Shown piece after piece: positions 3,728 through 58,100 of a DNA stretch of 64,000 bases. The DNA comes from Paracyclopina nana. Taxonomy: Eukaryota > Arthropoda > Copepoda > Cyclopoida > Cyclopettidae. Positions within the stretch are counted from its first letter, which is position 1; the number at the start of each line of letters is the position of its first letter. The stretch lies in NCBI GenBank assembly GCA_019096065.1, contig JAGUCH010000001.1:9424001-9488000 (forward strand). Direction: 5' to 3'. Position numbers and translations under genes: made by a program. Below the pieces are notes generated by a model. That model had not been told where the DNA came from. It saw nothing but the letters and a program-made list of their open reading frames with translations, and made no database searches.

Positions 3728-3818
3728 TTTGGAACTAGTTATTTAATTTCTGTTTGTGTTTCAAATACTTATGTATATTCCCTCCCAGGGAAAGTGAGGC
3801 GTGGAAGTTCGTGTAAAA

Positions 3819-26179: not shown

Positions 26180-26200
26180 ATGACTTTTTTATTTGAATTC

Positions 26201-31187: not shown

Positions 31188-34100
31188 CTGCTGTCAAAAT
31201 GTGGACCTTGATTTGGGCTGGTGGGGCATTATCTGGAATGCACTCAAAAATGCCCGAATCTTGGCCATTGGCGCCTTGCATCAAGAGATGAATTGTAGTT
31301 TGAGCTGCCTTCTCAGTTATCACCTGGGAAGAAAAACGGCTTTTATTATTGCTGCCACTTGTCTGCAATGTTGTTGAGATCATCTTAGGTGTTGCCACAT
31401 CTTATCTTTAAAAGGTACCTAATTGGCCTCGTTTTAGCCAACTTTTGCCTAGATTAGAATGACACGCAAAAACTTTTTTTAAAAGCTAACCTAGAATACA
31501 TGTTGCAAAGTGTGGACTTGATGGATTGCCTTCTTTAATTTAGGATGGCTTAAAAAGTGCACAAACATTTTTGCAACAAGCCATCACAAAAACGCTTTAT
31601 GCGTGCGTTTCAGGCTTGTGCCGTTGATCAAAAAGAAATTTTTAGCTCGATTCTAGGTTGACAGGAAAATTACGAAAGGGGCAAATATAGCTTCCTAAAA
31701 ACGAGGATTTTTTGCCTCTTTTGAACTTTTCCCCTCAGAGCTGCATCAGCGTGGTAAAAGAAAAAGTTGGAGCAATGGCCTTTTCAAGAGGCCTAGTGGG
31801 CCTTTGCAGCATCAACTGTAATTGCTGTATTCGTGGCTTTCCAGGCTTTTAACGTTGGCCTGGATCATCTGCACAATTTTGAAGGATCATCATTAAACCA
31901 ATGTTGTTTTCATAATTGTCCCATTCGGGTCGTAAACTTGCAAAATGTAGCAAAGTTGTGGAAAAAAATATCGTTGGTATGATCAAGGTTCGCCAATTCA
32001 GTTGCTTTCCTGATAATGTCACCAAGTTTTTTGTTAATTAAAACGCGGCGGTGTGTGACACATGACAATTTTAGCTTACCGAAACCCCATTTCTGGGACC
32101 TCTGAAGGAAATTTCGATTCCATTATGAAGCCAAGACACTTTGATGGGTGGCCTTTCCGTGTAACTGACAACGCAGCTGAGGTTTAGCATACTCCCTATG
32201 TCTACGAACATGTCAGGCCCGCCAATTATGTATGTTTTTGGCTCTGGAAGAAGCAAAAGGATGGTTTCAAAAATTGACTTGATGTCGGGACCAGATAAAA
32301 GCTATCTCTGCTTTTGAGTGACTGCAAGCAACTTTTACTATACTAGAACTTTATGAGCAGATCAGAATTTACGGCTGTTCCATCAAGTTTAGCTGAAAAA
32401 ATGGCCAACATGGGGATTATTACAGGGAATTTTTGATATCACAAAAAGTCCTTCTCCCTTTTGTGATGTCTGAAGCATATAGTAGGCATATGCTGACTAT
32501 AAATCACACCCTATTCAAGAATCCTTTTATCTCCAAGCTTCAAGTTTTAGCCAGATTGCTTACCTCCCAAGGGACGTATAAAATACAGACTGAATGTGAT
32601 TTTCACTATTGATGCCATTTCATAGGGAGGTCTTTCTCTCATAGAAGAGAGTTGCCCAAAATTAGCCCACCTAAACAATGTATAGTGCAAAAAAAAGAGG
32701 CCATCATGATTAATTAATGAATGAACCGAATCGTCTTTTGTGATGAGCAAAAAATAGTAGTAAAAAGAAAGCATTTACAGTCTCATATCTAATCCAACAG
32801 CTGCTTACTGCATGCTGTCTACCGCAACAAGCATGCAACATTAACAGAAAATGCATCAAACGATACCATACTGCATTAGATGATAATCCACATGATTACG
32901 GGGTGATTCAACTCAAATTGTTTTTGGGACACCCTGCGAGGCTTACCACATTATATGTATGAATAATAAAACAATCAACTCTGTCTATTGCGGACCAATG
33001 ATGCCCTACTTTAACAATGATAAATTCATGATAGATTCCAAGAAGCAGAAAAGCCAAGTATATTTCGGACACTTCATCAAGCTCTCGGGTCTTTTACATG
33101 CAAAACAAATGGCAATTTCATACTTTTGAAGCGTGACATATAGTGGGGCCCGATGAGCGCAGGCAGCGCGCAGGCAGCTTCGCAGAGGACGAGAGCGAGG
33201 GAAGGCGCCGAGCAAGGAACGAGCCGGATCATTGAGGAGTCGCTTGTGGGACGCCATATCGCGATGTCCAAATAAGTTGAGCTGTACTTAGTGATTGCAG
33301 ACTTGAGACCTGGAGGGTCTAAGATAGCAATAAAAGCAGCCTATTGAATAACAAAACAGTGGTTTTTAGTGAACAAACTCCATCGAGAACTCAGCCTTTC
33401 AACCTGAGTTGTTCGCGTAGCGCTGACTTGAAGCCTCAGTTCATCCAGAGGCCTCTCAATTCAGTAGTGATCCTACGGTGTGGGATATCTCGCCTCTCAA
33501 GAGTCTCGTCTCCGGATCTGGAGGTGCATAGACGCTATAGAGCCTTGAGGTCACAAGGGGCCGAGGAAGAGGCCGATCAGGACTGTCGTACTTGCCAGTC
33601 CACGAGGAGACCAGAGTGGTAGACTAGAGAGGTAGAGGCCCCTCGTCTCAAGGGGAAGTCGATCCAGCCTCAGAGTGCAGAATACGTATTTAGGCCTCTG
33701 AGGCCCCGGTCATCCAACCCCTTTCAATGGTGCCGCGACCCGGGAACGACCTGACAGGCGGAAGGATGGGCCTGTCAGTAGACCTCTAGGGAGTCTTCTT
33801 TGTCAGACCAACTGGCTTTGCGGGGGCACGGGCGGTGCAAGTGCCTAACTCGCGGGTTGGCCGATCTCGTCTGTCTCATCCTGACAGAAGATCGCGAATA
33901 GTGTAAAGTCGGCCTTCGGTGAAGGCAAAAAGGACCACGTGCGCGAGGAGAAGGGCCCACGAGTGTGTATAAGACCCCATTTCTTGTCTCGGCGTGAGAG
34001 GAGTGCCGGGTACCCTCAGAGTCTTCGAGAGATATAAACCTTTGTAGCCCGGGCTCTGAAAATACATTAGTCAAGTGGTGCGTTTGACTGCGGGGGGATC

Positions 34101-37100
34101 CAGGATTCCTAGCTTACGCGACTCGAGCCACGCCCTCTGCGAAGAAAGTCGAGGTCGGAAGGGTTGGACTTGACTTTGGACGCCCCGATCGGAGGAATCA
34201 GAAGAAATCTCGAGATTGGGCGGAATTTACGACTCCGCACCTGCGAGCCGGACACTGGAGTGATCCCGAGAAGAAGGAGGGGACAAGACGTTTAGAAAAA
34301 AGAAAGCCGAACTCAGGACGAGTTCACGGGAATTGCCGCACAGTCAGGCGAAAGTCGCAGTAGACCGCCGCAAAATCCCAAAAGTTAAGATTTAAAATAC
34401 AGTATATTTTGCTCTGCCCACAGCTAACGAAACGCTTTGCTTATTTCTAGCTCCACGAAAAAATTAGGGAAAGTTTTACGAAAAACTTTTCCCCCTTCTC
34501 AAGCTCGCACTTGAGACCAGATCTGCTCACTGCTAACGTAGCTTTTCCCGGTTTTTGCTATAAAAAACCTCTTCTCTCAAGCCCAGCCTTGAGAAGTGCC
34601 CACGTTGCTTTTATTGGTTTTTGCTGTAAAAAACCATTCGCCTACTCTCAAGTACAGACTTGAGACCTCTCACACTTTGCATATACTACAGTTAATCACG
34701 AATTCAAATAAAAACGGACAAGTGATTGACAATTAAATAAAACGACTTTTCTGCTCAAATTATTACGCAAAAGTATCACCAAATTCGCACATTTTGCGCG
34801 CTGAAAAAGAGACCTTTTTCGCAGATTAAATCAGAGTAAAAAAGAGACATCTTTTGAAAAATTCTAAGCTTTGCACTGCAACCCACTTTCAAAAGTTGCA
34901 GAGCCAAGTTCAGCCACATCAAAACCCTTTTTTTTTCACCAGATAAAACTAGTTTGCCTTCAACTCAAAACCCAAGCAAGACAAGCCCATAAATAAACTA
35001 GAAGGGCCTATTATCTTGCCAACTCACGCACACAATTTTGCAACCTTATTCGCTACTCTCGAGCGTGGGCCGCAAGCTGTGTAGCCCCGAGTCATTTCAG
35101 CTCAGAAGAGAAAAACAGGTTTCTGCACAGCCAAATCTGGCCATCTACTCCAAGCATTCCTGCCTTATTTGGGACCCTTTTTCAAAAGAACCCATTATAT
35201 TGCTATAATAAACGAATCAACTGCACTTTACTCGATTTTACGCGCACTTCGCACGCGGAAAAAGAGAACGTGTTTGCTACTCAACTCGCAGAAATAATTT
35301 CAGCTTCCACACTTTTATACGGAAAATAAAGAGTACTCTCTTGAATTAAACTTTGATTCAGCTGCAACCTACTTTCAAAAGTTGCAGAGCCAAGTTTAAC
35401 CACACAAAGAACCCTTTGTTACTTCAATCCAGCCATAAATTGTGAAGCCCAAAATCCTCTTACACACAACCAGCAAAAACCGGCTCCACTCTAATCTTTT
35501 GCACACTTCACGATTCAGCGAGACGGCCCAGCATAAATAGTCTTGAAGGGCATCCAATCCAGCTGACTCACACCACAATTTGGCCAAGCACTCAGCTTCA
35601 AGCCATCATCATCATAAATCTTGCCTGAAGGTTTTAAAGGAGCGGCCTAAAACTGCACCGGCTAAACCACTTTTTGCACACTCGAGACTTCAATAGACAT
35701 AACTTGAAATAAAAACCTTTTGCAAAAATCACCATGGCTTCCAATGAAACCGACACTCACGACACTATGACCCGCGCACTTTATATCGCGAGAATTGCCG
35801 GTCACCTTGACCGAGATGAAGGCCAGGTCGACCGGGAAATTAATGCACTCACGATTCTAAAAGGACCCATCGAAAATGTCATGCCTCTGTGGACCAAACG
35901 CGCGCGTCTCCCCGAGGAGCTCCCTGAAACACAATTGACCCAGCTACAGCTAATTGAAGCCTGGAACACAGCCAGAAGTGAGGAAAATGACATTTGGCCA
36001 CGTGAAAAGTCCGCCTCGGTCTCCGAGCACATTGTGACGATCATGTCAGGCCTGAGGGAGGGATCTGCCTTGATGCAACTTATGCAAGTCATACGCTACA
36101 TCCTACACATAAAAAACTCTGGTATCGACCCGATTGTTGTTCAAATCATCACGTATTTTCTTGGCCTTGAGGCCTTATCCGAGCTCATGGCCGTGAAAGA
36201 GAAGCTTACCGTGGTGGATAACATTCGAGCGGCCATCATATCCGCACTGCCAAACCCTCGCGAAAACATACTGCCTCTAGCTAGAGGAATCGAGATTGTT
36301 TCCATCATACTCGACCAGCAACAGATGCCTCAGAAAAATACTAATGTGCAACGAGAAGCTCAATTAGGAGGCATGAAAAAACCAGTGACTTTCGGGAATA
36401 CGACAACACTTGGAGCCCGGGACCACCTCTCGAGCACACAAAATAACACGAGCCAACCCCAAATGCCCAGCTTTGATGCCAGCCGCTTCCACACCTCGGT
36501 AGATGAAGATACATTATCAGAGGTTCAGACTAAAGTCCTAGCAGGGGAGAATACGACCCCTGAGGAGCAGCGAATATTTTACAACCACTTACGCGATTTA
36601 TATAACGATCAGATAGCGACTACAGCATTAAACGCACTACGAGCCATCTACAGAAAATACGTAGGGAGTGACAAAAACGCGCACCGAGCAACGGAAATTA
36701 AAGCCAGGATTGAGGCCATTACTCGAGATGGAATAGCCCTGGCAGAAAGCCGGGTTCAGCACGAATCCTTCGAGGAACCCATATTTAATAGAATCAGCAG
36801 AATGGATATCTCTAGCGTCAACAATCGTGAAACCGCTTTAGAAGCGGCCTCGCAGCTTGTCGACCCATCGACAAACGAGCGCGACAAGCAGAGAGAGATT
36901 TCAGCCACACTATTATTACTCACGAATGAGCCTAACCTTACTAATCTGCAGAAAGCAGCTTTTCAAGAAGCCTTCGTTAAAAACAGTCAAATGCTCGCAG
37001 CCCCGTCTGGAATTAGCAGCGTAACCTACTCACTCGAAAATAACGAGCTATACGTGCAACCTCCCCCGTGCGGAGCGGTTGCTCATCCGGATGCTAAGAC

Positions 37101-40100
37101 TATTAAATTGATCCGACAGTCTCTGTACACAACGAAATTCGATGCGAATTCCCCTGATAATCTGGACTCTTCGACGATGACCTTTTTTCGAGCCCTGGCC
37201 GACCAAGCATCTCTCAAGCAATGGTCTTGGAAAGCCACAATCGAAGCCCTATGCCTCATGTGCTCTCAAACCACGGTAGCAACAATACACACACTCATGA
37301 TGGAAGGAGAGCAAGCCTTCCCCACCGTTTGGTCATATCTGCAATCATCGTCCCACACTAAGCCATCTTATCATGAAATCACACGAAAAATCAACAATTT
37401 GTATAACAACAATCAGCTAGGCTTCGGTCAAGTGATGGAACGTTTCTTAACACTCCGCACTCACCAATATAAAGGAAGATCGCTAGGCCCAGGATCAGCG
37501 GTCGCAGCCACACTCCTCGACGGTAAATCCTGGTTGGACAATTTCTACCCTAACGATGCCAACTTAATTGACGATCAATTTGAAAAACATTTGGCCAGCT
37601 CGGGCATTAAACCCAACAGCTCAGAGGCTTACCATGCACTAATTCGACTAGTACAAAAGATGATTGGGAACAGTCCTCCACGTGCCCAGAAAGAAAAAGA
37701 GAAGGATCATAGATTGCCTCTCATCACAGGAGCTGAAAATCCAAGGCCACGCGTCCATGCCATTGAAATCGAAGGATCTGACGCAGGATCACAGGCCGAT
37801 TTACGCTCCGTAATACAGAAAATGATTAAAGACGAAATTCAAATTGCCGCTTTACAAGCCGTAAACGCTGGAGCAGCAGCTCAACCCGCTTCAAGCTCGA
37901 ATGAGTTGAACCAATTCACCGACCCTGAAAAGACGGGAGCATGCTTGCTCTGCAATCAAGCAGGCCACTTATTTAAAGTGTGCCGCGAATATCCGAATAC
38001 GCCACGCACACACTTTCGAAACGTAGGCCGCTGCAGCTTTTGCGGAGGCTACCACAGAGCCTTAGAAAATCTACTTTGCTGGAAAATCAAAAAAGAAGCA
38101 TTAAAATGAGCACCAACAATAAAGATTTAATTACACCAAATGCCTCACTAGCAGAGCCTCAAAAAGAGGCTGACAATACAAAAAACGCTGACGCAGACGA
38201 AACTAAGAGTTATAACTACGAGCTACCCCCTTTCATGCAGGGACACTTTTCCCGAGAATGCGGAAAGGCCAGTTTTTCATTCTACAGAGCTCAATCTGAA
38301 GCCAGGAAACTTAAGGAAACAGGAGTAGCAGAAGTAGCCAAAGTGTCCACGAAAACCCAGACTGAGATCGAAAGCACTTGTCATTACTTTGACGACGAGC
38401 CTGCCGATATCATCGAAACGTGGGACTCGGTCAGTAACCAGGGGAAACCTAAAACTGACAAGCCCGTAACAACAATCGAAAATAGCCCACTAGCCGACTC
38501 CAGCGAGGAGAAAACCTTACTAGAGCAAGGCAATATATGGGACTATGCAATTTACTCCTCACTGGCCATACTAGGAGCCTCCTTGGCCACCCAAGCTGTA
38601 AGGAACCCTCTAATTACCAAAGCAGCCTCTACGGCCATCATCATCGCAGTCACTGGCAAAACCGTAGCCGAATACGCTAAGAATAACTTAACCAATTTAA
38701 CTAGATTATTAGGCCTAAATAAGGAAAGCAAAGAAAAAGAAGTCGCATGCCTGAAAATAACCAATCGGACCGTGCCTTGCGAAAGCAGCACTGCTGAGCT
38801 CAACAAAGCACCAGTTACCGAAACAAAACTTGAGACTTCCACCCCTGCTGAGGCCCCAGTCTCGGCCACAGTCGTAGCCGAGACAGCAGAAGCAACAACC
38901 AATAACACAGGTGCAGCTGAAGATGATGATATAATGACCGTAATCCAGTCCAAAATTAATTCAGTGCAGGCAGTAAACTTTAGCACACACGTAAAGAAAT
39001 CCCTAGATGAAGTAGACGTCTGGGGCAACGAGGACATTCAGAGTTGTCATTCACTAGAGTTAAATGACTTGGCAGATCGCCCATTTATTCACGTACAGCT
39101 ACCAGGCCCAGTTTTCATCAAAGCGATGATCGACACGGGCTCGCAAAGCCAAATAATTTCGACGAAGCTTGTAGAAATCATCGAAAATAAATTAGGCTAC
39201 AGCCTACCAAGAGTAGCAACCAGACACAAGCTAAAAGTATTCAACGGCGACTCGATACCTTCTTCCGAGGCAGTAATACTACAAATTCTGCTAGGAGGGA
39301 AAATTCTACTAAGAAAAGTCATGTTTCTAAAAGCAGACGTAGAAACGATGCTATTAATAGGCAATTCGCTTTTCGCACACAACGATGTAAGACTGACTTG
39401 TAAAGGAACCACACAATACGTAGAATTAATTGGAAAAATGTCAAAATACGGTAAAATACCATTGGAATTATCATCGCAGGAGTTTTACCCAGTAATACTA
39501 ACCCATTCCGTGGCGTTGAGTCCAGGAGAGGAAATTACCACGTTGGCATACATCAAAGACGAAGCCCCCATACTGCCAGGCCTCGAGTATAACGAGGACA
39601 CAGAATGGGAGGCCGACGAAGATGACGAATCGATTATCAGCCATATATCCAAATTTGAAAACCAACCTATGCTTTTCGAAGCGGAAGAATTCCTAAAGCC
39701 AGAGTTAACGGATGGCGCAATCACAAAAGCTGACCACAACGGAATGGTGGCCATCAACTTGAGAAACACATGCGAATTTCCAATACGACTTGACGGACAG
39801 CAGATAGTTGGACATGTAAATCTAATCGATTCGCACCGATTTAAAAAGACGGATAAAATAAATCGCATCAACCTGGGACTAAAAGCCATAGCTAGATATC
39901 CTTCCCAGTGTTATTGCCAGCCACACGGAATAATTGCTCAATTCTCAGACGTTAATGGACTCACACGCACCACGTTTAATGCCTTTGACAGAGCAAACCC
40001 ATTAAAAGGTAAAAATAGACCTAAAATTGTATACCGGGACATGCAGCTATTTTTGGCCAGCGACCAACAAGACTCGTACGACCAACTCACAGATGAGTAC

Positions 40101-43100
40101 CTGCAAAAATGGCTCGCGAAGAAAGAGATAACTCACATCCCATGCATATTCGTAATTCCCGTTGAGCAACACTTATCGGGAGAAATGAAGAGGATTCTTT
40201 GCACATGCAATCGACTATTCAACAATTTTAAGCTCTTACACTTAAGGCACAATCATTGTTGCCACCGACACCAAACATTAGCCACAGCCCCTATTACCTC
40301 CTTCCTAGCTGGATACGAATACACAGTTTTAACCATCTTCGCTGACGGCCTTGAATGCTTCAACTTCCAATACCAAAAGAACAAAGGAGAGGATTTCTAT
40401 GACCTCAAAGTAATGGACTCACGGTTGAGACTATACAAATTGGCCAACGATATTCATATAATCCTACACATCCGTCAAGAGGACGTGGAAGACATCGAAT
40501 ACACCACGGCCCTGATATACACTATATTAGGACAATTACGCTTCAAGCAAACGAGCGACTACATTTACGTACGGGCCGTGACCGAATGTCTAATAAACTT
40601 AAACGATAACCCTCTATTTTTGGCCAGTGCAGCAGCCCTCACACTTCTTTCCGGGCAAAAATACTACCCCGAAGAAAGCACTTTTCAAGACCTACGAACA
40701 GACTATAATATACACCACTTTGTCTACATACCCGAAGGCTGCCGCTGCAACCTATGTCTAAAGCGAGAAAATGATCAACCAGTCACGGTCTGCGGAGTAA
40801 AGACAATCTTCGAAGGTCACCTGGGAGAGTACCACAACCGCCAGACACTGATCAGAAAAACCTCAGAACTGGACTTAGTGAGCGCATCACTAGACATAGC
40901 CGAACATACCGAGACGGAGAAACAGCTATTTGAAGAAGTATATCAGCTTCTAATAAATCACCCTTCAAGTATAACGGAGAACACGATATTCAACGGGCTA
41001 GGCGGCTATTTTTTCGCCACCCCTGATGAAGAGTTCGACAAGTTCGATCTGAGCCACATACCTGAAAGCCACAGGGAGAAATTTAGGTCCCTTATGAAAT
41101 CATACAACGACTGCTTCACCAATGACCCACGCGCGTACAAATTATGGAATAGCCCTCCTATAGAGTTCGAAACAAAAGATAACGTAAAGGTCGTGGCCAA
41201 GGCCTATAATATGGGACGACAGGACGTCGCACTCTGTGACCGAAAGATAGGCCTTATGCTGGCCAGTGGCTTGATTGAGCCCGTAGATGCAAGCCTTAAT
41301 AAATTCGGCTCGAGCCCCTGTTTCATTCGCAATAGAAAAAACGATGAAGACACCCCTATGAAGCAGCGCAAAGTCAGATTACTATATGACCTTCAGGAGC
41401 TAAACAGCCACATTGTGTACCGTGAGACAGGCCATGTAATCCCACCAATACAAACACTTTTGCCGATGCTTAATAAGGCCTGTCTGCTAACCACAGTAGA
41501 TTACGCATCGGGCTTCGACCAATGTAGATTAGCAGAAAGCTCAGCTGATTTATCTTGCTTATGCGTAACCTCTCCACGAAGTATTTACAGAGGCCACCTT
41601 TTCAGGCCCAAGACCATCCCGATGGGACTAGCACTATCACCAGTAGTTTTCTCTACAATTGTGCAACAATCCTTACATCCCGAAATACTCGACAGATGCA
41701 CATGCTATGTAGACGATTTGTGCCTGGCACGGATCAAAAACGAGCCCGCTCCCGCAGATGATAACGACTACGAATGCCATTTACGAGACTTCCAGCTCAT
41801 GCTAGAAAGCATGCGCAACTTAAATGCTCTACTTTCATTAAAGAAAAGCAAAGTAGCAGTAAAAGAAGTTGAAGTCTTAGGCCACATAATAAAGATAGCA
41901 CAAAACGGACGAGTAACAATGGAAATGCCACCGAAATACAGGGACGCATTTGACAATTACCCGCCGCCAAAAACCAGAAAGCAACTGCAGCGCTTCGTAG
42001 GCCTCACAAATTGGCTCAGCCAATATTGCCCTAGCCTGGGAGCGTACATAGCCCCGATATTAGATATCCTTGGCACCGACGATGGCCGATCTGGAAAATT
42101 TACCCTTTCTCCATTCCAAGAAAAATGCTTTAAAGCCATTGTCGAAGAAATAAAATTAGGCCTTACGCTAGCCTTACCTTCTTACGGAGAAACATATGTA
42201 ATAGTTGACGCCGGGACGATAAGCTACTCAGCACTGCTGGCGGAAGTGGACTCTCAAGGCAAAATGGTCTGCCTCGGAGCCCACTCGGCCAGATTCCCAT
42301 TAGCTATTGTACTCAATTACTGCTCATTCACAAAAGAATGCGTGGGAGTATTAGCAGCAGTCACACATTATAAGAAAATTCTTGATGCATGCACACGAGT
42401 GATAATTATCACAGATTGCATGGCAATTGCTTCCATCCTCTCGCATTCATTTACCACAAACAATTCGTTCATGACGCGTTTAGCATCTCGATTATATGCA
42501 CTACCATACTCCTGGAGACTGAGAACGGTCCCAAGGGACCAACTAGACGTGGTAGATGTTCTACTGAATAAATTTAAATTCTCGACTGACGAAACGATGT
42601 TTTTCGCCCCTTACAGTAACTCATGCCAGCTTACAAAAGACCTATATGCAGGCAAGCTAGAACTGCCAGAGGATGTGAAAAATAAAGTAATAACCACGCA
42701 GGAACTTCTCACTCATATCTACAACACGTTACTAAATAATGGCCTTCTTTCCAAGCAACTATTAGACAAACGTTTAGCATCGCTCCGAGACAAGTGGACT
42801 GACTTGATAGGCCCATGTGAAAACGAGCCATGGGACGAAGATAGCCTGGTCATTGTCAAAGATGACCCGCATGAAGAACCTATCAAGCACACTCATGAGG
42901 AAGAGATAAATCCATACTCAGCCGTTAGCTACTTAGAAAATAACCCCGTAGTGGAGATACTCTCAGTAAAAAGAGCACCCGAGCCGAGGCTACCGGGAAT
43001 TACTCGCAATTTGCTCATTAAACTTCAGAGAAACTGCGAAGAAACGCAAACTATTGTAAAGCTACTACTCATCAGCGATAAAAAGCACATACCTCCGGAA

Positions 43101-46100
43101 CTTTCAAGCCGCTTTAGAGTACTTGACGCATCGATACTAGTGGCCCGCAAGAACCTAAAAAGGCCCTTTTCGCAGGCCAGCAATACGAAAATATATATGA
43201 GCACTCATAATACAGCATATTTACTAGCATGTACTCACCTATTACATAACCACTTAGGTGCGAATAAAATGAATCTACTCTTTACACAATCTATGTACGG
43301 CACTTACAGTGCAAGAATTGCACGCATTATATCCTCAGCATGCATCCACTGTAGCCTAAACAAACAATCAAACTCCCGTTTTATAGGAAAAAGCCGGTTC
43401 CCACTACCGAAAGCCCCTTTTGACATGGTCTCCATAGATTTAGCATTCTTCGACGAAACACTGATAACCGGCAGAAATGCCACAGTGGCTTTTATAATGG
43501 TAGACATGTTCAGTAAGCTTCTTATAGTCAAGCCTCTCACAGATGCCAAGTTCAAACAAATATCAACCGCCATGGAAGAGATATTCTCCACATATGGCAC
43601 CCCAAAGCACATAATTGCTGACAACGGAGGTAACCTTACTCGAAATCTAGCCATGCAGGAATTAATAAATAAGTATAGCGTGGAGACCGTAGGATTACTA
43701 TTTACCACTCCTCATAAACACACAAATAGTTATGCAGAAAGTAACATACGCCTCTTAAGAAAAGCTCTACTGCTAAATCTGCAATGCTATAATAAAAAGC
43801 AGAGCGAAGTACTAAAATATACAGTGTTCGCCCTCAACAATCGACCGCTAACCTTTTACAAATATGTTGATGAAAAAGGTCACACCATCATTCCTACACC
43901 GTTCAGCCTATTTTTTGACCGAAAGCCCGTCTTTGACATCGGACATGACATTTATGACATTCTTTCGGAAACAGAAAAATTAGTACAGAAAAAACAATGG
44001 GCCGAAATAATACAGGAATACGATGAAAAGGAAGAAGAGAGGATAAAAGTAATGTCAAAGACTGAATCCTTGTCCTTCAAACCAGAAATTGGTAGCCTCG
44101 TGTTCGTTCGACGGTTGCCGGAAAATAAACACAGGCGAAGATTTATGGCCGAGTTACACGAAATTGTTGATATAACGCGCACTCAGGCCACAGTCAAGCC
44201 CTACTTACGTAAAGGAAAAGAACGACAAGTCGGCCTAGACCAAATTAAAATATATCGCTTTCACGAGTTATACTCCATGCTTCCTGAAAAAGTCACCGAT
44301 TTATTACTGCGTACTTATACTCCAGAACAAATTAGCAAAAATGAGAGCTCAAGGGAGATGAGACAATTTCTGACCAACCCTTTGGTCAAACCTCCTCACA
44401 AAAGGAGAACTGACGAGATCTCTGAAAGAGAGCTGGTAGAACAGCTAATTTCGGAAACCACGTCTGACACTACAACCTCGTACGATAGACAACTGCAAAC
44501 CGCCTTAGATGCAGGCAGCATCTTGCAAAGAAAAGCCGCTGATATATTTAAGCCTGAGGACATCGCACGAATAAGACAAAAGGCACAAGATGTGGTTCTC
44601 GAAGATTGGAAACAGTTCAAAATTAGACATAAAGATTCCCCCGAACAAATAAAGGCCCAACTAGGCCTTGACAAAAATATGCCCTCGTTCAGACAGCTAG
44701 CATTAGATAGGGTCAAAAATCAGGCTCCACATCAAGACCCTAAAACAATGGAATACTCCACACCAGACAAACCATCTGAGCCAGTTAACCCAGACTACAG
44801 TTCCATTTCCAAAGCATTCCCGAAGGACCGGGAGCAAAATCAATCATTCGACACTGACGGAAGTTTTTCTCCTGACCACCCTATACTAAACGAGAATAAT
44901 CTACAGGCCGAGCTTTCTAGAATCAATTTCCCGAACCGAAACATGGACCTTGAAATCGAGTCTTTAGCTGACTCCTTCGCTAAGGCCTCCATTGAGCCCC
45001 AAGACCCATTGTTCTCGGGATTACTGCAACCTACAGACCTAACCAAGGCCTTTGACAATACTAAAGAATTCATCGAAGAATTCGAAAAACAGACCAGCTT
45101 TGTCAGCCCAGAGAGTAAAAATAAACTACTAGAAGGCTTTAGGAGACTGTCACGAGCTTTCACTTCTCCTTTTAAATCACCCAAAACACGCCCAGAGGAG
45201 GCAGGCACAGAAATGTCACCCCTGATTCCAAGCACTAACGATCCTTCACACGATCCTGACGTATACGAGGACGTGGGAGAATATGGAGCCACTGCCAGGC
45301 CGCCCACACCAGATGAAGAAGACGAATTAGTCTCACCACCTAGTATAGCAGACGAAATGCTGCGTAGATTGCGAGGCAGAAAACCAATAAATTACAGAGA
45401 AGCAAGAGCATACACAAAAAAGGTACACTATGTGCCACTCGAGCCCAGAGAAGGACCTCTGCCACTGGCTGAAAGGAGAAAACTCCGCGAAATATTCAAC
45501 AGCGACAATGGTGATTCGCCTTATCGAGTCCAGTTGAAACATCACGTATTAAGAGATTGGAAAGGAAAACACGTCGTAGCACCGCGTTTCGACTACGCCA
45601 TCTTCCTCAAGGCGATGGGGTTAGACAGCGAGAGCGACGAGCTACAAAAAACATTAATGAAGCACAGAGTTACGCGAGACGACATGTACCACCTATATAA
45701 AGGAACACTATAGCCCTCAGGCGCCAGGCGTGCCGTCTCTTCTTAGCAACCCGTGCAACACTGCTCCCCAGTACACTCGCTTAAGCCTTGAAAAATGGTG
45801 CTTAACGCATGCAACCTATTAGCTTGGAAATCTGAGAAAAAACAACTAGCACTTGAATTGATAAGACAATATTGGGTGAGAATGAGCTTCTCATCGCCTA
45901 CACTTCACGAACAGGACATTTTACACGAACTGTATGAGTTCGGAGTATACCAACACGTGAAAAAGGTTGGTAGACACAAAGCCTTTGTGCGGGCCACATA
46001 TGACCTCCTGAGGCCTTCCCCATGGCATTCCTTAGTATCACGAGAAACAATATCTTCCCACGGCACCTCAAGCTTGTACAACTTCGACGAGCTAATTGGA

Positions 46101-49100
46101 CTTACCGAAGGATTTATAAGAAAAAATAAAGGGATGGCCTATAAGCAGGCACTAAGTGAACATTACCTCAGTAACCGACACTATCCAGAACATTTCAGGG
46201 ACGAACAGCTGCGCCCTACACCAATGCCTCTGGACGCGTTATACGAGAGCCTAATTAGCTTAATGGCTTGCCGCTGGAGACTACACCTCAGAGGCAACCC
46301 AGAAATGGATCACGAGAAATTGGTGGCCATTCCTGAGCAATTCTTAGAGGACCACTGCCAGAATTACTGCGAAACAGACAAGCTTCGAATTAAATCAATT
46401 TTGGCCCTCTCAAACAGCAAAACATAACAAAAAGGCTTGTCAATAAAGGCCAAAGAACACGAAATTGCCGATAAAAATATGAATAAAAAATAAAAGCCTT
46501 ACATGTAACATCAGGACAAATAAACTAATATAGCCTTTCTCATAAAAGTTTGTTGCACAATTGTAGAGAAATTATTAAATTAAAATTATTTCATAATGCA
46601 TAACACTTTTGGACGAGACAGCAGACAGTCTACTCATCACATTCTCTCGCTGCTACAGGAAACTTCGCAGTCTCTTCGCGATCACTATGGAGCCTACAGC
46701 ACAGAAATTAATAGTCAGAACTCCCGAATGGAAAAATACAGCTATACGGCTCATGAAAAAACACTGGATAGACAAAAATCCAATTCCACCCCCAATTGGG
46801 ATGACAAACCTTATGGACCGCGCCATGTTACACGAGCTGGCACGATTCGGCATCGACCAGTACGTACAGCAAGTATGCACGCACAAAGCCTTTGTGACCA
46901 AAACTTTCGAGCGCTTCATTCGCCCGCCGTGGGAAAACGTAATCTCGCGAGACGAGATCGCAGCCTACGACGACTCCTCATTATATGAATTCGACGAGTT
47001 GGTTGGCCTGACCGATGGCATTATTCATGGCCGTAGAGGAGCTGCCTACGACAGGGCCATCAGGCATCATTATCTGCGCAACCAGCACCACCCAGAACAC
47101 TACGTCGACGGAAACGGCCGGCCCACTCCTATGCCGTTTGCACCCCTCTTAGCAAGCGCCTTAGGTCTAATTGCCACACGCTGGGAGAAACAGCTACAGG
47201 GCGACCCACAAGTCGACGACAAAACCTTGTTAATGATTGAGCCCCAAACACTGGACAATTACCATGAGCTTGACAAGATGAGAATTATGGGAATTATGTC
47301 GCTATTTAGGACACAATAAACTAGCACCCACAGCCATAAATATGAATAATAAATATATATATATACATATTAACATTCAGCACACTTTCGCACTCTAGTG
47401 CGATATATAGCTCCCAAATATGGCCACAAATTCGGTTAGGGTGACCAGGTCACCATAACCTCTCACAACCTCAAATAGTCACACACATCACACCAAATCT
47501 GGTTAGGGTGGTGTCCGTGACACCAGTGCGTAAGATGGAAGCCAAAAATAAGACAAAATTTTTTTTTGCCACCCACCCTTTCCGAAGGGGGGGGGGGGGG
47601 AATGCAAGGCATACACACACGGATAGATCAATACGCTTTTTTGCATCAAATACGGTGTTTTATTTAGCAAATCCCAAAACCTTAATCATGACACCCAAAA
47701 ACAACTTTACTTCAGTCACATAAAACCAGATACAGCCGGCTGATTCACCCAACTGAGAGTTCACCCACTATAAAAGGTTAAGCTCAATCAGCAAAGCTCT
47801 CATTCAGCCCAAAAAGCAACCAGCGGAAGGACCGCATTGAGTGCTCTCTCAACGGAGCTATCACGGATCAATCATAGCCAGAGGAAATCTCTCATCAGTT
47901 GCCTCAGTTGAGTCTACCACATCAGCCTTGGAATCTTCAGAAATACGAAAACGCAGCCCAGCGTGCTCAGCAGTTGGCCTTTTACAGAAACCCTATCGTT
48001 GTACAAGACACCGGCCACCTGACAAAAAGAGAAAAATAAACCTCTAAATTAGCACCGCATTGCAACTGTGACTTACCAGATTCACGCACCCGCGCTTGCA
48101 ACCAATGCCAAGCCTACCAAGGGCACAGCTCTCCAAGGGGAACAAATACCATTTCGCAGCAGTTCCAAAACCAACCAGGTATACGCCTATCAGGAAACTT
48201 GCCCATGATGCGGCGGCGCCTCCAAGGGGAACAAAAACCATTTCGCTACACGAGCCGGGCCCACCCAGCCAGCCGCATTGGCCCCTCCCACCGGCCTCGG
48301 CCTCGCCCATCGGCCTAACCCCTCGAACATGCCGGACCACGCCTTCACAGAGAGGCAGGGCCGCCCTCGAAGACCGAGGCGTCCCCACAGCACATTGACG
48401 AGTACAGGCCACAACTATCGAGCCAAACGCAGAGAGGCAAGCGACACGCCCAGTCCCGCCCATCGTCAGCGTGCCCCGCCCTCTCACCACGTCGGCCACC
48501 ACGCCCTCGCCACGAAGATGGAACAGCAGGATAACTATAACTTCGATTTTTATAAAACCACACTCTGTAACGAAAAAGAAAAAATATAACCTGTACTAAT
48601 CACTTTGGTGTAACAAAAACACTTACTTGACTTCCACGGGGACCATTCAATCCGAGAAGAAGCTCGCCGACGGCCACACCCACATTTTGCGCCCGGCCAC
48701 GCCCAGGACCTGACAATGACTAGGTCACACGCGAGCTCCACCCGCCTGATCACCAAGAGGATCATTATAACAGCGATTTTTATAAAATCACATCCTACAA
48801 CAAAATACAATTTGTATATGCGATACTTTCGAAATTAGATTACCTACTAGACTTCTATAGAGTCGTCGATGACCCGCTCCTCGAGTCCCAGAATTCGGAC
48901 GACGAACCGGGACCCCCGGGGCAAGTCATGCGGCTCCAAGTAAAGCTGACTCACCACCGGGAATAAAAACCGCGGCCGCCTCCGAAAAACCCACACGAGG
49001 AACGGCAACCCGAGGTAGATTCGGCATATCAGCCCCGCCGCTACCGTAATTAAGAGGCTGACACAGCCCCAAAAAGCGGCCTAATCAAAGCCCTGGAAAA

Positions 49101-52100
49101 CAGAGCTACCTCAATTAAAAAAGTAAACAAAATTGTCAAATTCCACTCACACTTTCTGGAGCCGCGACAGCCACGGCCGGCGCCGTCGAAGTCGAAGTCG
49201 GTTCAGTCCCACCATAAAACTTTAAATTCAGATAAGTCAGGTTACAAAGCCACGATTTCCCGAACAATTTTACCTCTCGCACTATAAAAGACATTTCAGC
49301 CGCCTCAAGCAAAAATCACAAGTCCAAATAGAGCTACCAGACCGAATTCAACCAAAAGTCCCCGTTCGCAATGCGCAAAAGCCAAAAGGAGCTTAGAACG
49401 CGTCAACTATGACATCTGGTACCTCTGCTAGACAACGCGACCATATATTAGGACTCAGAAAAAGGCCAAAACCGTCCCAGAAACGCCGAAACCGCGAGCT
49501 ACAATATCAAACGAAAGCTAGCAACCCCCAAGTGAAATGTATTTGCCATGATTTATTAAACAAGTAAAATTAAAACTCCATGAACAAATAACTAGGCACG
49601 CAAAACGAGGCTGTAATTACGAATCGGCCTCGCCATCGTCATGAATTTCCACGAGAACCTCAGTTTTGGTGACATCACCAACAGTGTTAGCAGCTTTCGC
49701 GATGGCTTCAAGCGCAACATCAACTTGTCTACCCAAATCATCAAGGATAGCACGCTGGGCCACTGTGCAAAGTGCCCCGTTGACCTTATCATGCAGCGCC
49801 TGCTGCGCTGCCCGATTGCGAGCTTCTATACCCGCAATTAGCCCCTCCACACTTGGACCCGCTACACCCGGGCGTAGCCCACCAGCCTTCGCCACGGGGC
49901 CACCAACAGCTTTTTGGCCCGTTTTAGCCGCTGATCCACACTTCTTACGGCCACTTCTACTCGCATCATCACACGAATCCTCCTGCTTCTCGGCCGACAG
50001 AACTTGAACAGTGCTTGTTCCTCCCCCTCCAACGACCACCTGCTGGAGTTCGACATCATAGGTCACAGGCTCACTCGGGGGAAAACGTCGGTGGTATCGG
50101 TTCAAACACCAATTGTCGAGGCGACGATACCCCCAGATGCAGCCCCAGGCCAATGCCGACAAAATAATCTGCAACAAAAGGCCGAGCATAAGATTGAGCC
50201 CTCAAAAAGGAAGTCAACTAGAACTTACTATGATCCACACACCAAAGGAAATGGTGCCAAAAATGCCAAGTAAATCCACACTTTCGGGTTCAGCTGGCTC
50301 GCCCTTGGGAGCACCCGGGCATCCAGGTGCGGCCTCCGATGAAAACGCAAATTGCGGAGCAGCTGTGGTAAATTGGGCCACCGCTGTAGTCACTTTATCC
50401 ACTATTTCACTGACTGGCAAATCCTATCAAGCATAAATATAAAGCATACAGAATTACTATCAGATCAAAAATCATAAGTAAATAATTAGCATTACTGGAA
50501 AATACAAGTCGACCACTTCGCCCAAATTGAACGACCGCAGTGATTGGAGCACAGCCGATAATTTGGTGCAGGGAAAGGCAGTCCAAAACTGCTCTGCATA
50601 ATATCGGTCTGCCTCAAATTCCTCCCGGCCCAAAGAGAGCTCATAAAGCAGTCGACCAAAGTAATGTCTTACCTCAGTACTGCCCGCCTCTTTCGTAGAC
50701 GGGAGAACGAAACTCATGTCTCGTATATGTGAGCGTACAGGAGCAATACTTCGAGCTTAATGAGAAATAATCACCTTTCTTCCTGGCAGCCACAGATCGC
50801 GCCCTAGATCATCTCCCCCCGCGAAAGACATCGCGCATGCAATATCAATTCAGCAATAAATCAGGGACATCATAAACGCCCCCTTTTAAAAAAGCGGTAG
50901 AGAGAAAAATGTAAACCGGTTTTTGCATCTTGAAAACGAGACTATACAACTGCAAGTCGAGCTCACTCCCCGCAGCGAGGTCACATTTCCTCAACGCAGC
51001 TTTAAGCTCCTCGCGCCGTAAATCAAGCTGACATCAGCATTCAGCTCGAGCACTGATTTCACCACAAATGAAGGGAAAAAATGAATGCAAAATTAACTAA
51101 AATATTGTGATATAAATATACACAATGGGTACATGCACCCTGAAAAAGAGTGAATGGCCCGCTCATAACGTCGCACGCTACGCTTAAAAATCCCGAATTC
51201 ACACTGCTCGAAACAAGACAAGAAACAAGACCATAAATCTTAGAGATGAACACTTACTATGTTAAAACTGCGAGGAAGAAAAACAAGGCAGGGGGACGAA
51301 ATCAAAATTTCCCATGGCCATAAAGCATGAGGAGTTATAACACATTACTTGAGTAAAACTCATGTAACTCGGCCATAAACCACTCAATCATCATCATTAT
51401 TCTTGCTTGTACAGTCTTGCCAGAAAAAAGGGCTTGGCCCCAGGGCAAAAACCCACGCTTTAAAAATAACCGGTTCCCGAGTGCTCAACCCTTTGTGACT
51501 ACAAGGTCACACAGAAATGGGCCAGCCAGAGATGCAGATAAATACAGCTTGCAAAAATGAGAAGGACTCATTCCACTCGCAACCAGCATTGCAGCCAGCA
51601 CTACGACTACGTTAAGCCCCACGAAACGAAATGAGCCAAGATAACCAAGCCGAGACCCCCGGGGTCCCCCTAGGCCCCATGGAAGTCGACCGTAGCGACA
51701 CTCAGGAAACTCCAGCTCAGCCCAATAATGAACGTGAGGTCGACGACGATTCACCCGCGGAACCTGAGCGGCCCACCCTGGAAAAATGGGCACGCGATCT
51801 CGACTACTACTACAGCTTGGAGGAGCTAACCGCGCACCACACTCCTGAGCGCTTTATCGAGGGCCTAATAGCAATAGAAAAAGCCCGACAACCAGTGCAA
51901 AGCCCATTTATTCGCCAATTGAACCTATTAAAAGGTACACTAAAAAGTAACTCTCTTTTATTAACTTGTCATGCTCATTGACACATTATAAATCAGGTCC
52001 CAGGCCAGAAGTTCAGTGGGGCATGCAACTGGAAGCCTGGCCCATGAAAAATGGCGAGCGATATGAGCCATCCTCTTTTCGCCAACCAATACGCATTCGT

Positions 52101-55100
52101 AACTTGGCAAGGTTGACCTTCGAAATCCGCCCCGGAGCAGCTGAAAGCGACGAGATTCCACGAGTAGCCCTAGTTCTTCTGGGCGGAGAAGAGGCTAACC
52201 CATACCCACTGTACAACACAACGGGCAACGCACTTGAGATTCAAGACATGTGTCCAGTATTGAGTCCCACACTGGGCTCCCACTACAAGGTGGCCACCAT
52301 CGGAAACGAAGGCTTGCCCGGCGTCTTCGTAGAAGCACCGGTGCGCAACAGAAAAGTCGACGTTTTGATTAAACTTGACGAGTCTTACGTAGAGCCCTCC
52401 TTATACATCGACCCATCCACCATTGCAGTCCAGATCCTGGTGATCTCGCCTGAGTATCTGGCCAACGGCCTGCTTAGTTTTGGAAGCTTCTTCCCACTCA
52501 AAGTAGACATGCGCTACCAAGCCTGCCCGGAGGTCCAATCCTTCATCGCTCAACTTGAAGAGGAGAACCCCCGCATGGTGCGCTACTTGCAAGGATGTTT
52601 CACCCTGCAGGAGCGCAAAGCCCTACAACAACGTCAGCGAGAATATAAGGAACGTGAGAATAGAGAAAGGACTACTTCACCACCGACAAGCTACGCAGCC
52701 GCTGCCAGAGCCAGTCATCGCCCAGCGCCCTCCAGAAGACCAGAGAGGACCGAGCCCTCGACTCAAATCGAGCGGGAAATCGCGTCCGCGCTTGAACAGC
52801 TCGAGCCCAATAAAAGAGAACGCCTAAAACGGGAGCTGCTCAGCATGGTGAAAAAATAACCCGATGACCTCACTCCACCATTAAAACTTACTGAAACGGC
52901 CCGGACCTCTGCGAGAACAGGATTGCACAATTGCCTTGTACATAACTGTCAACATAAATCCCCATAACATTTTTGAATCAATGCTCACTAACCATAGAAC
53001 TGGCGCCAGCATGAATGAAATAAAAATACTTGCATACCACACAAATGCGCGAATTCTTCCCAGACGCGCACCCGACCAACAAATGCATCCCAAAGATGCA
53101 CTTTTACAGCACAAATGCGCACGCCCGGGACCAGAAAAATGCAGCCTAAAAATGCACTTTTGCAGTATAAATTAGAGGCCCCTTGCACATTGCACTCAGT
53201 TCAACAAGAACAACGTTAAAGGCAACATGAAAGTGTTCACTCACGCAACCGCTTACTTAATACTAGCACTTGCTGACATCTCTGCGCCCGCATTTATTCA
53301 CGAATATGGGCAAGTGACGGAGAATTCAATTTGCATGAACAACTTCGCACTTAGGCCGTACCGTCGACTATATCATGTGCAAGAAGAAGCTGAGATGACA
53401 GTGCTGGACCTTGAACCTTACGCACAAGCATTAACCAAGGTCAGGGCCGAAACGAAAGACTCATTAGTGAAAATACGCCGCCACCCGCAAGATTTAAGCG
53501 TCCCCAGATTCCTGATGGACTACAACAATAAAATAGTAGCCCTGACCAACGGAGACGTGAAAGATTTGGACAAATTGTGCAACAAAAGGATCCCCGGCTT
53601 CGAGGGATTCGAACCCGAGTCAAACGAAGAAATGTCCGAATTCCTACGTAAGGCATTAATCCTACGGTCAGGCTCGGGAAATAAACACACGTTTAATATG
53701 AAGATCGACGTAGTCTTTAAATCCATTGTGACCCTCGATAAAAAACTGGTATTCGAAAACATGGAAGGAGCAGAGCCCAGTGGCACCTATGTCGAGGGCT
53801 TTCCTACACTCACAGTTGAAACAGAGCCACAATTCCCCAGCAAAATCAAGAAAATGACCGTGTTTCCACCCGTCACAGCAGTGCAAGACGCAGTCTGCCA
53901 GCGGAAATATCCTGCCTTGATAAACGACAAGAGTGCATTCAACAAGTTTACCAACACAGTAGACTCTTACCTGAGAAAAATGGAAAGTGCCATCAAAGTC
54001 TTAGGGGAGCTAGCACTCTCCGGGTCAGCCCGCGAGTTCGCGACCAACATGATGAGAAAAGCCAAAAAAGCAACACTACCTGCCGCTCTTCGACAAGCCG
54101 TGCAAATGATAGAAAAAATCTCCAGCATAGTAAAAGTAGGTGGCATCGATAGCGAGGAACTTAACACCCTCATGGGAGGCCTCAAGCTAGTAGCCCAGTT
54201 CAGCAAAGCCATAAAAAGATTAAAGAATGTATATCGCTTTCCATACGCGAACGAAGCAACTGAGGAACTCGATGAAATCAGATACGTGGGAATTGCCAAC
54301 ACTATCGAGGCCAACGATTACATAATCCGAGGGGTAATGCGTCAAGACTCGCGGGATCCTGATCCGGAAACAACTTACCTCATAATTAGCAGAAGCCTGG
54401 ACGGCAAGATTCTCAGGCCCAAATACTTAACACAGTACAAGAAGAAGGCCTACGTGACCAACGAGTTGCCCCACTACACCGATTGCTACGAGGAGGAAGA
54501 CGGGACCATTGTGTGCGAGCCCAACGAGTATCAGCCTATTCCCCAGGAGACATTATGTGCACACAGCCTGTTGGGAAAGGCAATAGATGACCCATTCGAC
54601 GTGTGCGAGCTCCAGCAGCTAGGCGATAACACGCTCACACCCGTGGACTGCGACTTATACACAGGAATTGCAAACGTGGTCAAGGAAACTACCCTCAACC
54701 GCACTTGTGCAGACGACGACACGCAAAAAATCATCTTGGAGCCCGGATCTTACCAAATCAAGTCGAACTGCCAACTGGAACTGAATGATCAAACCATCGG
54801 CGTGCCAGAGATGGCCAAGGAGTCGGACATCGCACAATACATACACAAACTGCCGGAAAAGACCTGGCTCAATATTTTCACTCGATGGGAAGTGTACACC
54901 ACTGTTGCATGCCTCTCAGGAGCCATCGGACTAATACTGGCCTGCATAATCTGGAGAAAGCGACATCAATGCTGTAAAACACGGCCTACTCGCCCAACGA
55001 GACGAAGGGGCTCGCGCGACACCGAAGAGACACGATCACTGCAAACGCGACAACGATATAGCGATAAATTAGCCAACAATTTAACTCCACTTACCACATA

Positions 55101-58100
55101 TCCCTCAATTTCTAGACTAGAATAAACACTGCAACTAACTTCTCATCAGGGAACATCCCCCACGTCCTGTGGCCACCCTTTCTTTTATTTTTTAGGTTAG
55201 TGACCTCGTCATCCAAGGTCACGCTGGACTTGGCCTCCGAGGTCAAAATTGGTTAGGGTGATTGAAGCGTGACATATAGTGGGGCCCGATGAGTGCAGGC
55301 AGCGCGCAGGCAGCTTCGCAGAGGACGAGAGCGAGGGAAGGCGCCGAGCAAGGAACGAGCCGGATCATTGAGGAGTCGCTTGTGGGACGCCATATCGCGA
55401 TGTCCAAATAAGTTGAGCTGTACTTAGTGATTGCAGACTTGAGACCTGGAGGGTCTAAGATAGCAATAAAAGCAGCCTATTGAATAACAAAACAGTGGTT
55501 TTTAGTGAACAAACTCCATCGAGAACTCAGCCTTTCAACCTGAGTTGTTCGCGTAGCGCTGACTTGAAGCCTCAGTTCATCCAGAGGCCTCTCAATTCAG
55601 TAGTGATCCTACGGTGTGGGATATCTCGCCTCTCAAGAGTCTCGTCTCCGGATCTGGAGGTGCATAGACGCTATAGAGCCTTGAGGTCACAAGGGGCCGA
55701 GGAAGAGGCCGATCAGGACTGTCGTACTTGCCAGTCCACGAGGAGACCAGAGTGGTAGACTAGAGAGGTAGAGGCCCCTCGTCTCAAGGGGAAGTCGATC
55801 CAGCCTCAGAGTGCAGAATACGTATTTAGGCCTCTGAGGCCCCGGTCATCCAACCCCTTTCACTTTAGTCCTTGAAGTAGATGAAAAGTTAGATGAGTTT
55901 GAGGAGAGGAACTTGGTCTTATGAACTTTGAGACTAAAGGGCCATCATCCTTACTCATATACTGCCACCACTACACAAAAGCCATTTTTGTTGTTGCTCC
56001 ACAACGGCTTTTCCCGGCTTAAAATTCCACCACCAGGCTTTCGAATAAAGCCTATGGTGATGAGGCCTTCTCATGAAGAATTTCAAGTCCGGTCTATATA
56101 CCATGAACAACTTAAATAACCCTATCTACTGCTCATATGGAGTTATGAGGCAATGACAATTCGGACCAGTAGGTTCAATAGTGTGTTTGTCTAATGTCTC
56201 TATATTCAATGATGATATTTGAACAGGGCTATTATTAAGACTGGTCATAAGGCCAAAGCTGTAAACCTTTTTTGACCTTTCTTTGGCATGTGTGGACCTT
56301 TCTCAGGGAGAAATGGCTCGAGTGAATCGCAAGTTGTTTATGGAAGTTGGTCACGCAACCGAGCCAAACTCAATTTCGTGCAATTTCGAGGCAAAACAGT
56401 AAGGAAGTAATCCAATTACAATCGTGTGCAAAACAGAATTATCCCAATTATCTGCTAACTTTCTATAAGGGGCTGAATCATGAGAGATAAACGATTTGTA
56501 GCCTGGATAGTTTGGAGCAAGGAGACATTTTAATGGTAATCTAATCAGTTCACTACGCGAATAGTTCCGCAGGAAATGCGACACGTTTTTTGTAGCGTCA
56601 GTAATTTTTAGCGGTATCTCTCGCACAAATTCTGGCCAAAGTCTCTTTCATTGGCATTCAATAGGTGCTAACGCCAGCGTTTTCGGAGTAGCAAAGGAGG
56701 TCACTTTTTCTCTCTCCCATCCTGAACTGCGCACCCATTTTTGCTCAATTTTCAATGATAGTTTCTATCAGAAACTACATATTTCGAGCATAATGTGCGA
56801 CAATTTGGCCACAGCAAAAAAGTCCTTTTGAAGAAAGTTGGCAAACTTCAAAATCTGGTTTTAAACTTTTTTTCTGCTGGTGTGACATCTTTTGTTGAAA
56901 TCGAGTAAAATTCTACATTTTTGGTGGCAAAGAGAAGCGCGTGGTTTGCTGTAAATTAATCAAGCGTCTTGAGTAAGCTTGCTTTCCAGGGAAAGCTGTC
57001 ATCTAGCTACAGCAAAATTGAATGCGGCACTTCTGCAGAAGAGACAACTTTTGAAGTTTTGTCCCAATACTCGAAAGAGAAGGAACTTTTACAGTTGCCT
57101 AGATGAACCTCCAGTAGGCCTTAAGGCCAAAATTAGGCGATACACCACAATAGCCCGAAAAAGTAAAGAAACTCCTCCCCACCACAATAAATTGATCTCT
57201 CCAGTTTGCTACCATATCTACTTGTGTGCAGACTTAAAAACTTGATTCATAAAAAATGATTCAAATGTACTAGAATCCCTTTTTCCCTGTGTGCTTTTTC
57301 CCCTATAGGCCTCAATTTAGAATGTACCAATTTGTGGTATATATTCAGTGGTAAACTTTATGGGACAGGTGTTGTTGCCAATCTGTGGCCACATTTGCAT
57401 TTCTTGGGGAAATGCATTGGATGAGTACATCACTTGAAATTAATCACAGCAAACCGAGTCTCCAATTTTCAGTTCCACTCGATGCTACTGAGTGAAAATA
57501 ATTTAGGGTATAATTCCGGTTCACCAGTTCAACACCTTAGTATACAGCGTCATGGTTATATTTTGTAAGTCAACAAGTATGGAGCGAGGCCTTGAATTAT
57601 ACCATGCGCGCGATAGCTCAATTTTCCACCAGATTATACCATATGGTACAGAGTGTGCCATAATAAATGCAAATATTTAGTATAGGCTTACCATGCACAG
57701 TGAGGTAAACCAGTTGAGTTCTGTGTGGCGTCGTAGAGATTTGGCATCCATAAACGCCGGAGTCTGACGTCCGTGGATCTTTGAGCCTCACGATCCAATC
57801 ATCCGTATGTGGTGAATGGAAGGCCTCAAATCGGAGGTCGGTCGTGTATGTGTAACGGCCCACAGTCAGGAGACTCGTGTCTTTATACCGTATCCATGAA
57901 ACCTGGAAAAAGAACCATGCCGAATATTACAGCTACTAATCAGAAACGGAGCCAAAAAAGGCAGCCATTTTTTGCCATTTTGAAGCATACGCTCAAATTT
58001 GTTAGGGCTCCATTGAGTCTCAAATGAAACGTTTCATTGCCACAACTTGGACTTCCTGCGGAAAGTTCGCCTCGAAAACTTGCTCCAGCTAGCTTAATGG

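Follow-up and report, generated by a model that had tools for sequence, protein, structure and literature searches.

A size of 10 kb has been given as the traditional limit for retrotransposons in a review that also describes the Burro/GYPSM1 elements of planarians, which are Ty3/gypsy-like, have internal regions of more than 20 kb with env homology and several accessory domains, and have been proposed to be integrated proviruses (PMC6431247). Ty3/gypsy elements of giant size that carry env and accessory genes are thus known already, and size alone is not new. Insect endogenous retroviruses or errantiviruses such as gypsy and ZAM combine a Ty3-type gag-pol with a 3′ env of ~600 aa, and infectious spread has been proposed for them as well (PMC12992720). 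Here we report on a long terminal repeat (LTR) retroelement in a 64-kb stretch of the copepod Paracyclopina nana genome (contig JAGUCH010000001.1, positions 9,424,001 to 9,488,000; hereafter the window), in which gag and pol are followed by a large block of further genes on both strands (Table 1). We consider that it is best explained as a recently active, autonomous, retrovirus-like Ty3-type element with a genome of ~22.7 kb, a reading to which comparison of its copies leads us to give a probability of roughly 80%.

An initial annotation made from the letters of the window (the sequence-only reading) had described an apparently intact LTR retroelement with a virus-like gene set, bounded by 600-bp LTRs with one visible difference, TG...CA ends and a CTTT target-site duplication, and followed by a primer-binding site. 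Comparison of the LTR pair and its flanks bears out each of these features, the single mismatch being at LTR position 32, and the 18-nt primer-binding site is complementary without mismatch to the 3′ terminus, with CCA added, of a tRNA-Phe gene found in the same genome by pattern search (ARAGORN called a tRNA at one of the three scanned loci matching the site). We searched the genome (92 Mb, 10 contigs) by scoring the best candidates only, so that all match counts given here are lower bounds. The LTR was found at 31 places, 15 of them at ≥96% and 16 at 70–85%. The 15 close matches correspond to one solo LTR, with the 4-bp duplication ATTT, and to seven pairs spaced by 22.05–22.26 kb, which gives six further full-length copies beside that of the window. 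Paired LTRs with a short target-site duplication, by which an LTR retroelement is recognized, are present in all seven copies; the 4-bp duplications vary between sites (CTTT, GTAA, CTCA, TCTA, CTTA, GGTG and CCTT), and the LTRs within a pair differ at 1, 0, 0, 1, 1, 1 and 3 of ~600 positions. As seven loci have this layout in common, a chance arrangement can be set aside, and the window element is a real and apparently recently active LTR retroelement. Mobility via an RNA intermediate is shown by the near-identical LTR pairs and by one copy (C3b) that lacks exactly the 62-nt GT-AG intron of the gene preceding env (pre-env), from which it follows that a spliced RNA was reverse transcribed. The accessory block diverges by 0.4–6.0% among copies; the insertions are thus individually young while their source lineages are older, which points to several active lineages or to reinfection.

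Low ratios of nonsynonymous to synonymous substitution rates (dN/dS) between the copies show purifying selection on pol, pre-env, env, both DUF5662 genes and one antisense gene. For four pol segments the ratio is 0.06, 0.02, 0.01 and 0.06, with six copies compared for the first and seven for the others. The claim that the catalytic residues of protease, reverse transcriptase (RT), RNase H and integrase are complete stands in part. A DTG protease motif, a YVDD RT motif, RNase H residues and HHCC/DDE-like integrase residues can be read by eye in the translation, as would fit the order protease-RT-RNase H-integrase of Ty3/gypsy elements, and RT (51 bits against a cut-off of 29.6) and RNase H are found by Pfam above cut-off, whereas protease gives a match below cut-off only and the integrase core is recognized by eye, with a D-to-E spacing of 38 residues by visual count against the usual 35. 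At the gag/pol junction the gag stop codon is overlapped by an ATG (ATGA) and a run of six A is present; RNA structure downstream is unremarkable (z −1.34). A search of PDB sequences with the RT-RNase H region gave Ty3 RT as best match (E 4e-17), then Ty3 Gag-Pol (1.9e-16) and retroviral enzymes from 1.2e-11, the entry at ~1e-11 being what we take to be a gammaretroviral-type RT/RNase H. The bit scores of 65 for Ty3 RT against 47 for retroviral RTs, a coarse comparison given the few lineages in PDB, likewise suggest that the RT is closest to Ty3-type RTs among PDB sequences. Pol also has a C-terminal extension of ~470 residues after the integrase (44301-45713), with a dN/dS of 0.06 and no Pfam match.

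The sequence-only reading had further listed ~10 kb of genes outside gag-pol, comprising a DUF5662-like paralogous pair, spliced genes for membrane proteins in the opposite orientation, a spliced sense gene and an env-like gene with its own promoter. This block (45714-55262) measures 9.5 kb and is carried by all seven full-length copies, and its inventory holds except for the second opposite-strand gene, which is only partly supported. In the first antisense gene, three exons encode a product of 322 aa whose 969-nt coding sequence is open in 7/7 copies, as are the GT-AG borders of both introns (57–72 and 60–62 nt) conserved; indels among copies fall within the introns only, and dN/dS is 0.32. 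One transmembrane segment (Kyte-Doolittle 2.3) spans the exon 2/3 junction, an AATAAA lies at ~49555 after exon 3, and beyond the seven copies a genome search with exon 3 matched a single relic. A 194-aa open reading frame (ORF) seemed disrupted in all but one of the six other copies, as if the antisense ORF were not conserved, and an intron indel proved to be the cause. For the putative second antisense gene, a hydrophobic exon is seen at ~49080-48853 and dN/dS is 0.19 in segment 48850-49080. We claim no gene for a 183-aa antisense ORF at 48044-48595, whose frame is broken in four of the six further copies; in this region five copies have sequence that is missing from the window copy (133 nt) and from copy C3c (136 nt). 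A 56-nt gap at ~51225 in copy C7 was considered as another intron loss and rejected, its ends having no GT-AG.

Both DUF5662 genes score above the curated cut-off of the Pfam family PF18907 (35.5 and 34.7 bits against 27); they are 41% identical to each other, with a dN/dS between copies of 0.23 for paralogue a and 0.20 for paralogue b. At a putative HD dyad, paralogue a reads HD in five of the seven copies and HG in the window copy and copy C7, and the aligned column of paralogue b reads YD in 7/7 copies. Alignment with a separate DUF5662 gene suggests that HD would be a catalytic dyad, and the pair may, tentatively, consist of a captured HD-like hydrolase and a paralogue with a changed histidine. 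Within the genome DUF5662 occurs in the element copies, one relic and that one separate gene, and it was found in none of 14 control genomes. The separate gene is a 209-aa ORF located outside the seven copies (C2:11424858-11425286, minus strand; L061:438-1067); it is the top-scoring DUF5662 match in the genome, and the captured pair may derive from it or be related to it. No relative was found in PDB or in genome contigs searched with the DUF5662 alignment, nor in viral contigs searched with DUF5662, Env, RT and the DUF5662 alignment, and PHROGs gave no match under E 0.1; most of what these contig and PHROGs collections contain is prokaryotic or viral, and a match in the scans requires close peptide patterns. 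A literature search found no mention of DUF5662.

The spliced sense gene, pre-env, has a dN/dS of 0.14 in exon 1 and 0.04 in exon 2, and its frame stays open in copy C3b after the precise intron loss; a PDB sequence search with its alignment found no relative. For env, dN/dS is 0.10 over six copies, the frameshifted one being excluded; one of the six has a TGA, and the ten ectodomain cysteines are invariant in all eight aligned Env sequences. We call the gene env for its architecture (a long ectodomain with conserved cysteines, one transmembrane segment near the C terminus and a position before the 3′ LTR) together with weak fold matches. A C-type-lectin-like domain is predicted in Env by a low-confidence structure model, whose top structural matches include a baculovirus fusion protein and an RSV F0 fragment with TM-scores of ~0.1. 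The promoter proposed for env is likewise present throughout as a putative one, with TATA and TCAGT boxes upstream of env in 7/7 copies and a spacing of 24 nt by eye. The TATA..TCAGT pattern has three matches in the window against 0.34 expected and so is not specific by itself; two of the three do not precede env.

The env gene and its neighbour extend beyond the seven copies. By identity and ORF length, we sorted related elements of the same genome into four families, W, B, C and D. Env as query gave at least 70 matches (the best 70 of 118 candidates), ten of which belong to the same family and its near relics, the other 60 being related families at 28–31% identity. RT as query revealed related pol ORFs, several of 2488–2669 codons, with 46–59% identity over long stretches. 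An RT match lies 8.9–21 kb upstream on the same strand for 66 of 69 env matches, and a pre-env match within 5 kb upstream for 67 of 69. These pairings used 84 of 125 RT matches (short fragments and a 30–34% group were left out), 69 of 70 env matches (without the second fragment of copy C3b) and all 105 pre-env matches. The pre-env gene was found in all family groups, and its protein in the window family is 23% identical to that of family C (E 7e-16). With both RT and pre-env beside env in the other families, sequence comparison indicates that the pre-env/env pair is common to the whole lineage, its companions being related RTs; no other part is as family-specific as the DUF5662 pair. Upstream of env, the four family C loci have a spacing of 23 nt, with TATAAA at two and TATAAG and TTTAAA at the others; one family D locus has TATATA with a spacing of 25 nt, and one family B locus has no fitting TCAGT. 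One further locus, L032 (C7:5672574-5682570), is a mosaic in which the remains of an old env and pre-env of the window family stand beside a family C pre-env piece and ORFs with long simple repeats and many NTAN/EHGRTQ-like and CSPCSL-like strings. More generally, RT matches in the genome number at least 150 (the best 150 of 658 candidates), many with open frames of more than 1300 codons, and several other retroelement families look young.

In the element as we picture it, genomic RNA would be driven by the 5′ LTR, env would be expressed from its own TATA/initiator promoter and AATAAA signal, and minus-strand transcription inside the element would yield a single-pass membrane protein. Enveloped particles with a lectin-like domain in their envelope would result, and reinfection of the germ line may be part of the spread. 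The giant lineage spread recently, probably by reinfection, for which selection on env is the main, indirect argument, given that env would otherwise be expected to decay. Several points weigh against this account, beginning with the fact that the element is known from genome sequence alone. Comparison of gag with the six other copies covers its last 179–385 nt only, and the integrase core found no match in Pfam or among PDB sequences, a sub-threshold H2C2 finger excepted. Two of the six other copies have a damaged pol (a 1-nt frameshift in one, a stop in the other); env has a TGA stop in the copy with the pol stop and frameshifts in a third copy. If the poly(A) signal ahead of the 3′ LTR is functional, it would truncate genomic RNA wherever it is not bypassed. 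Sequence homology of Env to a known fusion protein was not found, with no Pfam family in eight members and a best E of 0.055 or worse for the Env alignment against PDB sequences; the Env model has a mean pLDDT (per-residue confidence score) of 56, and no clear furin-like site was seen by eye. Finally, the dN/dS pairs are not independent, two copies differing by 0.4% in the accessory block, and low dN/dS can mirror selection on a few ancestral source lineages.

A bolder extension of the same account, which we regard as possible rather than probable, would make the element a member of a distinct lineage of reverse-transcribing viruses of at least ~22 kb with DNA-virus-like gene organisation. Such viruses would combine an LTR-driven gag-pol, an env unit under a promoter and poly(A) signal of its own, preceded by a perhaps matrix-like partner gene conserved across the lineage, opposite-strand spliced membrane genes, a lectin-headed envelope of no known fusion class, a captured and duplicated HD-like pair, and reinfection. 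At the other end, the element could be an intracellular retrotransposon in which env and the accessory genes are recent passengers without a role in spread. Broken env or pol genes in some copies would suit such a history, as would the fact that particles are inferred only, and extra ORFs of unassigned role are described in bdelloid and plant LTR elements (PMC5408684, PMC7264820). We consider it unlikely, since recent passengers would hardly show accessory-gene dN/dS values of 0.04–0.32 across up to 6.0% divergence, or a pre-env/env pair common to families with Env identities of 27–31%. Less likely still is a composite in which an LTR retrotransposon trapped a fragment of a large virus or of host genes and moved it passively. 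The rarity of DUF5662 (one other gene in the genome beside the copies and the relic, none in the 14 control genomes) speaks for it, as do the separate signals of some genes that are encoded on the other strand, and for the DUF5662 pair taken by itself capture may well be the origin, a part of the argument that stands; the block as a whole is nevertheless present in all seven copies with its exons under constraint, and pre-env and env accompany related RTs in other families. An assembly artefact, or two separate LTR insertions around unrelated DNA, had been named as what would undo the sequence-only reading and might be entertained for an assembly given as contigs only, but is ruled out by seven loci with the same spacing, distinct 4-bp duplications, 0.4–6.0% divergence in the accessory block, that block in all six other copies, and a true LTR pair in every one of the seven.

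The seven independent copies show that constrained genes on both strands can be maintained by a Ty3-type element within a genome of 22.7 kb, a size well beyond the traditional limit (PMC6431247). The element offers a way to test by what means so long an RNA is packaged, how genomic RNA tolerates genes encoded opposite to it and along which route viruses arise from LTR elements, and the pre-env/env pair provides a marker for tracing the lineage in other animals.

Table 1. Coordinates of the element and its features in the 64-kb window.
Feature	Position	Strand	Basis or remark
Left target-site duplication, CTTT	33123..33126		
Whole LTR element	33127-55862		~22.7 kb
5′ LTR, 600 nt	33127..33726	+	LTR comparison
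Primer-binding site, 18 nt, complementary to tRNA-Phe	33728..33745	+	
5′ leader, ~2 kb, no notable ORF	33746..35712	+	window copy only
gag ORF, 798 aa stop to stop, CCHC-like fingers at C terminus	35713..38109	+	zf-CCHC_2 below Pfam cut-off
pro-pol ORF, 2578 aa stop to stop, −1 relative to gag	37977..45713	+	ORF list, Pfam, copy comparison
RT, Pfam RVT_1	41460..41891	+	Pfam above cut-off
RNase H, Pfam RT_RNaseH	42192..42491	+	26.6 bits against cut-off of 24.8
DUF5662 paralogue a, 210 aa	45795..46427	+	Pfam
DUF5662 paralogue b, 210 aa	46687..47319	+	Pfam
Possible second antisense membrane-protein gene, exon structure uncertain	48853..49294	-	ATG 49294
Antisense gene 1, exon 3 with stop	49617..50168	-	spliced model in all copies
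Antisense gene 1, exon 2	50229..50423	-	spliced model in all copies
Antisense gene 1, exon 1	50496..50717	-	spliced model in all copies
pre-env, exon 1	51631..51934	+	
pre-env intron, 62 nt, GT-AG	51935..51996	+	exactly missing from copy C3b
pre-env, exon 2	51997..52859	+	
TATAAA + TCAGT, putative env core promoter	53166..53200	+	
env-like gene, 632 aa	53227..55125	+	ten ectodomain cysteines, transmembrane segment 558-576, basic tail
AATAAA overlapping env stop codon	55121..55126	+	
3′ LTR, 600 nt	55263..55862	+	one difference from 5′ LTR
Right target-site duplication, CTTT	55863..55866		

Elsewhere in the window, two near-identical tRNA-Ser(GCT) genes (26097-26180 and 27520-27601, 95% over 93 nt) adjoin acyl-CoA-oxidase-like exons, and two related tandem arrays in opposite orientation lie at 12-542 and 1314-1932, with a period of ~23 and multiples. 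The gag-like ORF of another retroelement is found at 2648-3742 on the minus strand, with zf-CCHC above cut-off, and the flanking genes include a chemoreceptor-like 7tm_7 match below the Pfam cut-off.

The sequence-only reading had suggested that the arrangement falls outside the described families. Size is no part of what sets it apart, being already known from Burro, but the combination of features was unmatched within a limited literature search. Within that check we know of no described family with this combination, and no published description of the 22.7-kb element was recognized, most subscription journals lying outside the scope of the search. Burro elements are longer than ours, carry their env homology in frame between gag and protease in one huge polyprotein, and have AIR1, Smc, MATH/TRAF, BIR, ankyrin, BCL2-like, SUMO-like and dUTPase-like accessory domains; the available sections of their description do not mention antisense genes (PMC6431247). 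In contrast, the window element has separate gag and pol ORFs, 600-nt LTRs, an env that is a separate ORF after pol, and DUF5662, pre-env and antisense genes as its extras. The env of errantiviruses is of the baculovirus F type (PMC12992720). That of the window element has no Pfam match and weak F-like fold matches. Errantiviruses are usually shorter than 10 kb, against 22.7 kb here. Plant Ty3 elements of the Retand/Grande type likewise carry, after pol and ahead of the 3′ LTR, genes in antisense orientation, for which Grande has a separate promoter and whose proteins are nuclear or have a TRP28 domain (PMC7264820, PMC11963269), whereas the three-exon antisense gene described here encodes a protein with one transmembrane segment in an animal element with env; the word “intron” was not found in the text of either plant report. 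Bdelloid TelKA (PMC5408684) and the hookworm Atlas virus (PMC9094657) are invertebrate LTR elements with captured viral fusion proteins, either paramyxovirus-like and of ~600 aa or of class II type. Our Env has no sequence match to these fusion types, and gene number and size differ. Foamy viruses, members of the Retroviridae, have an internal promoter in env that serves accessory genes. The window element resembles them in having accessory genes and a putative internal promoter inside a reverse-transcribing genome, and differs from them in being Ty3-like and in having its TATA and TCAGT boxes just before env.

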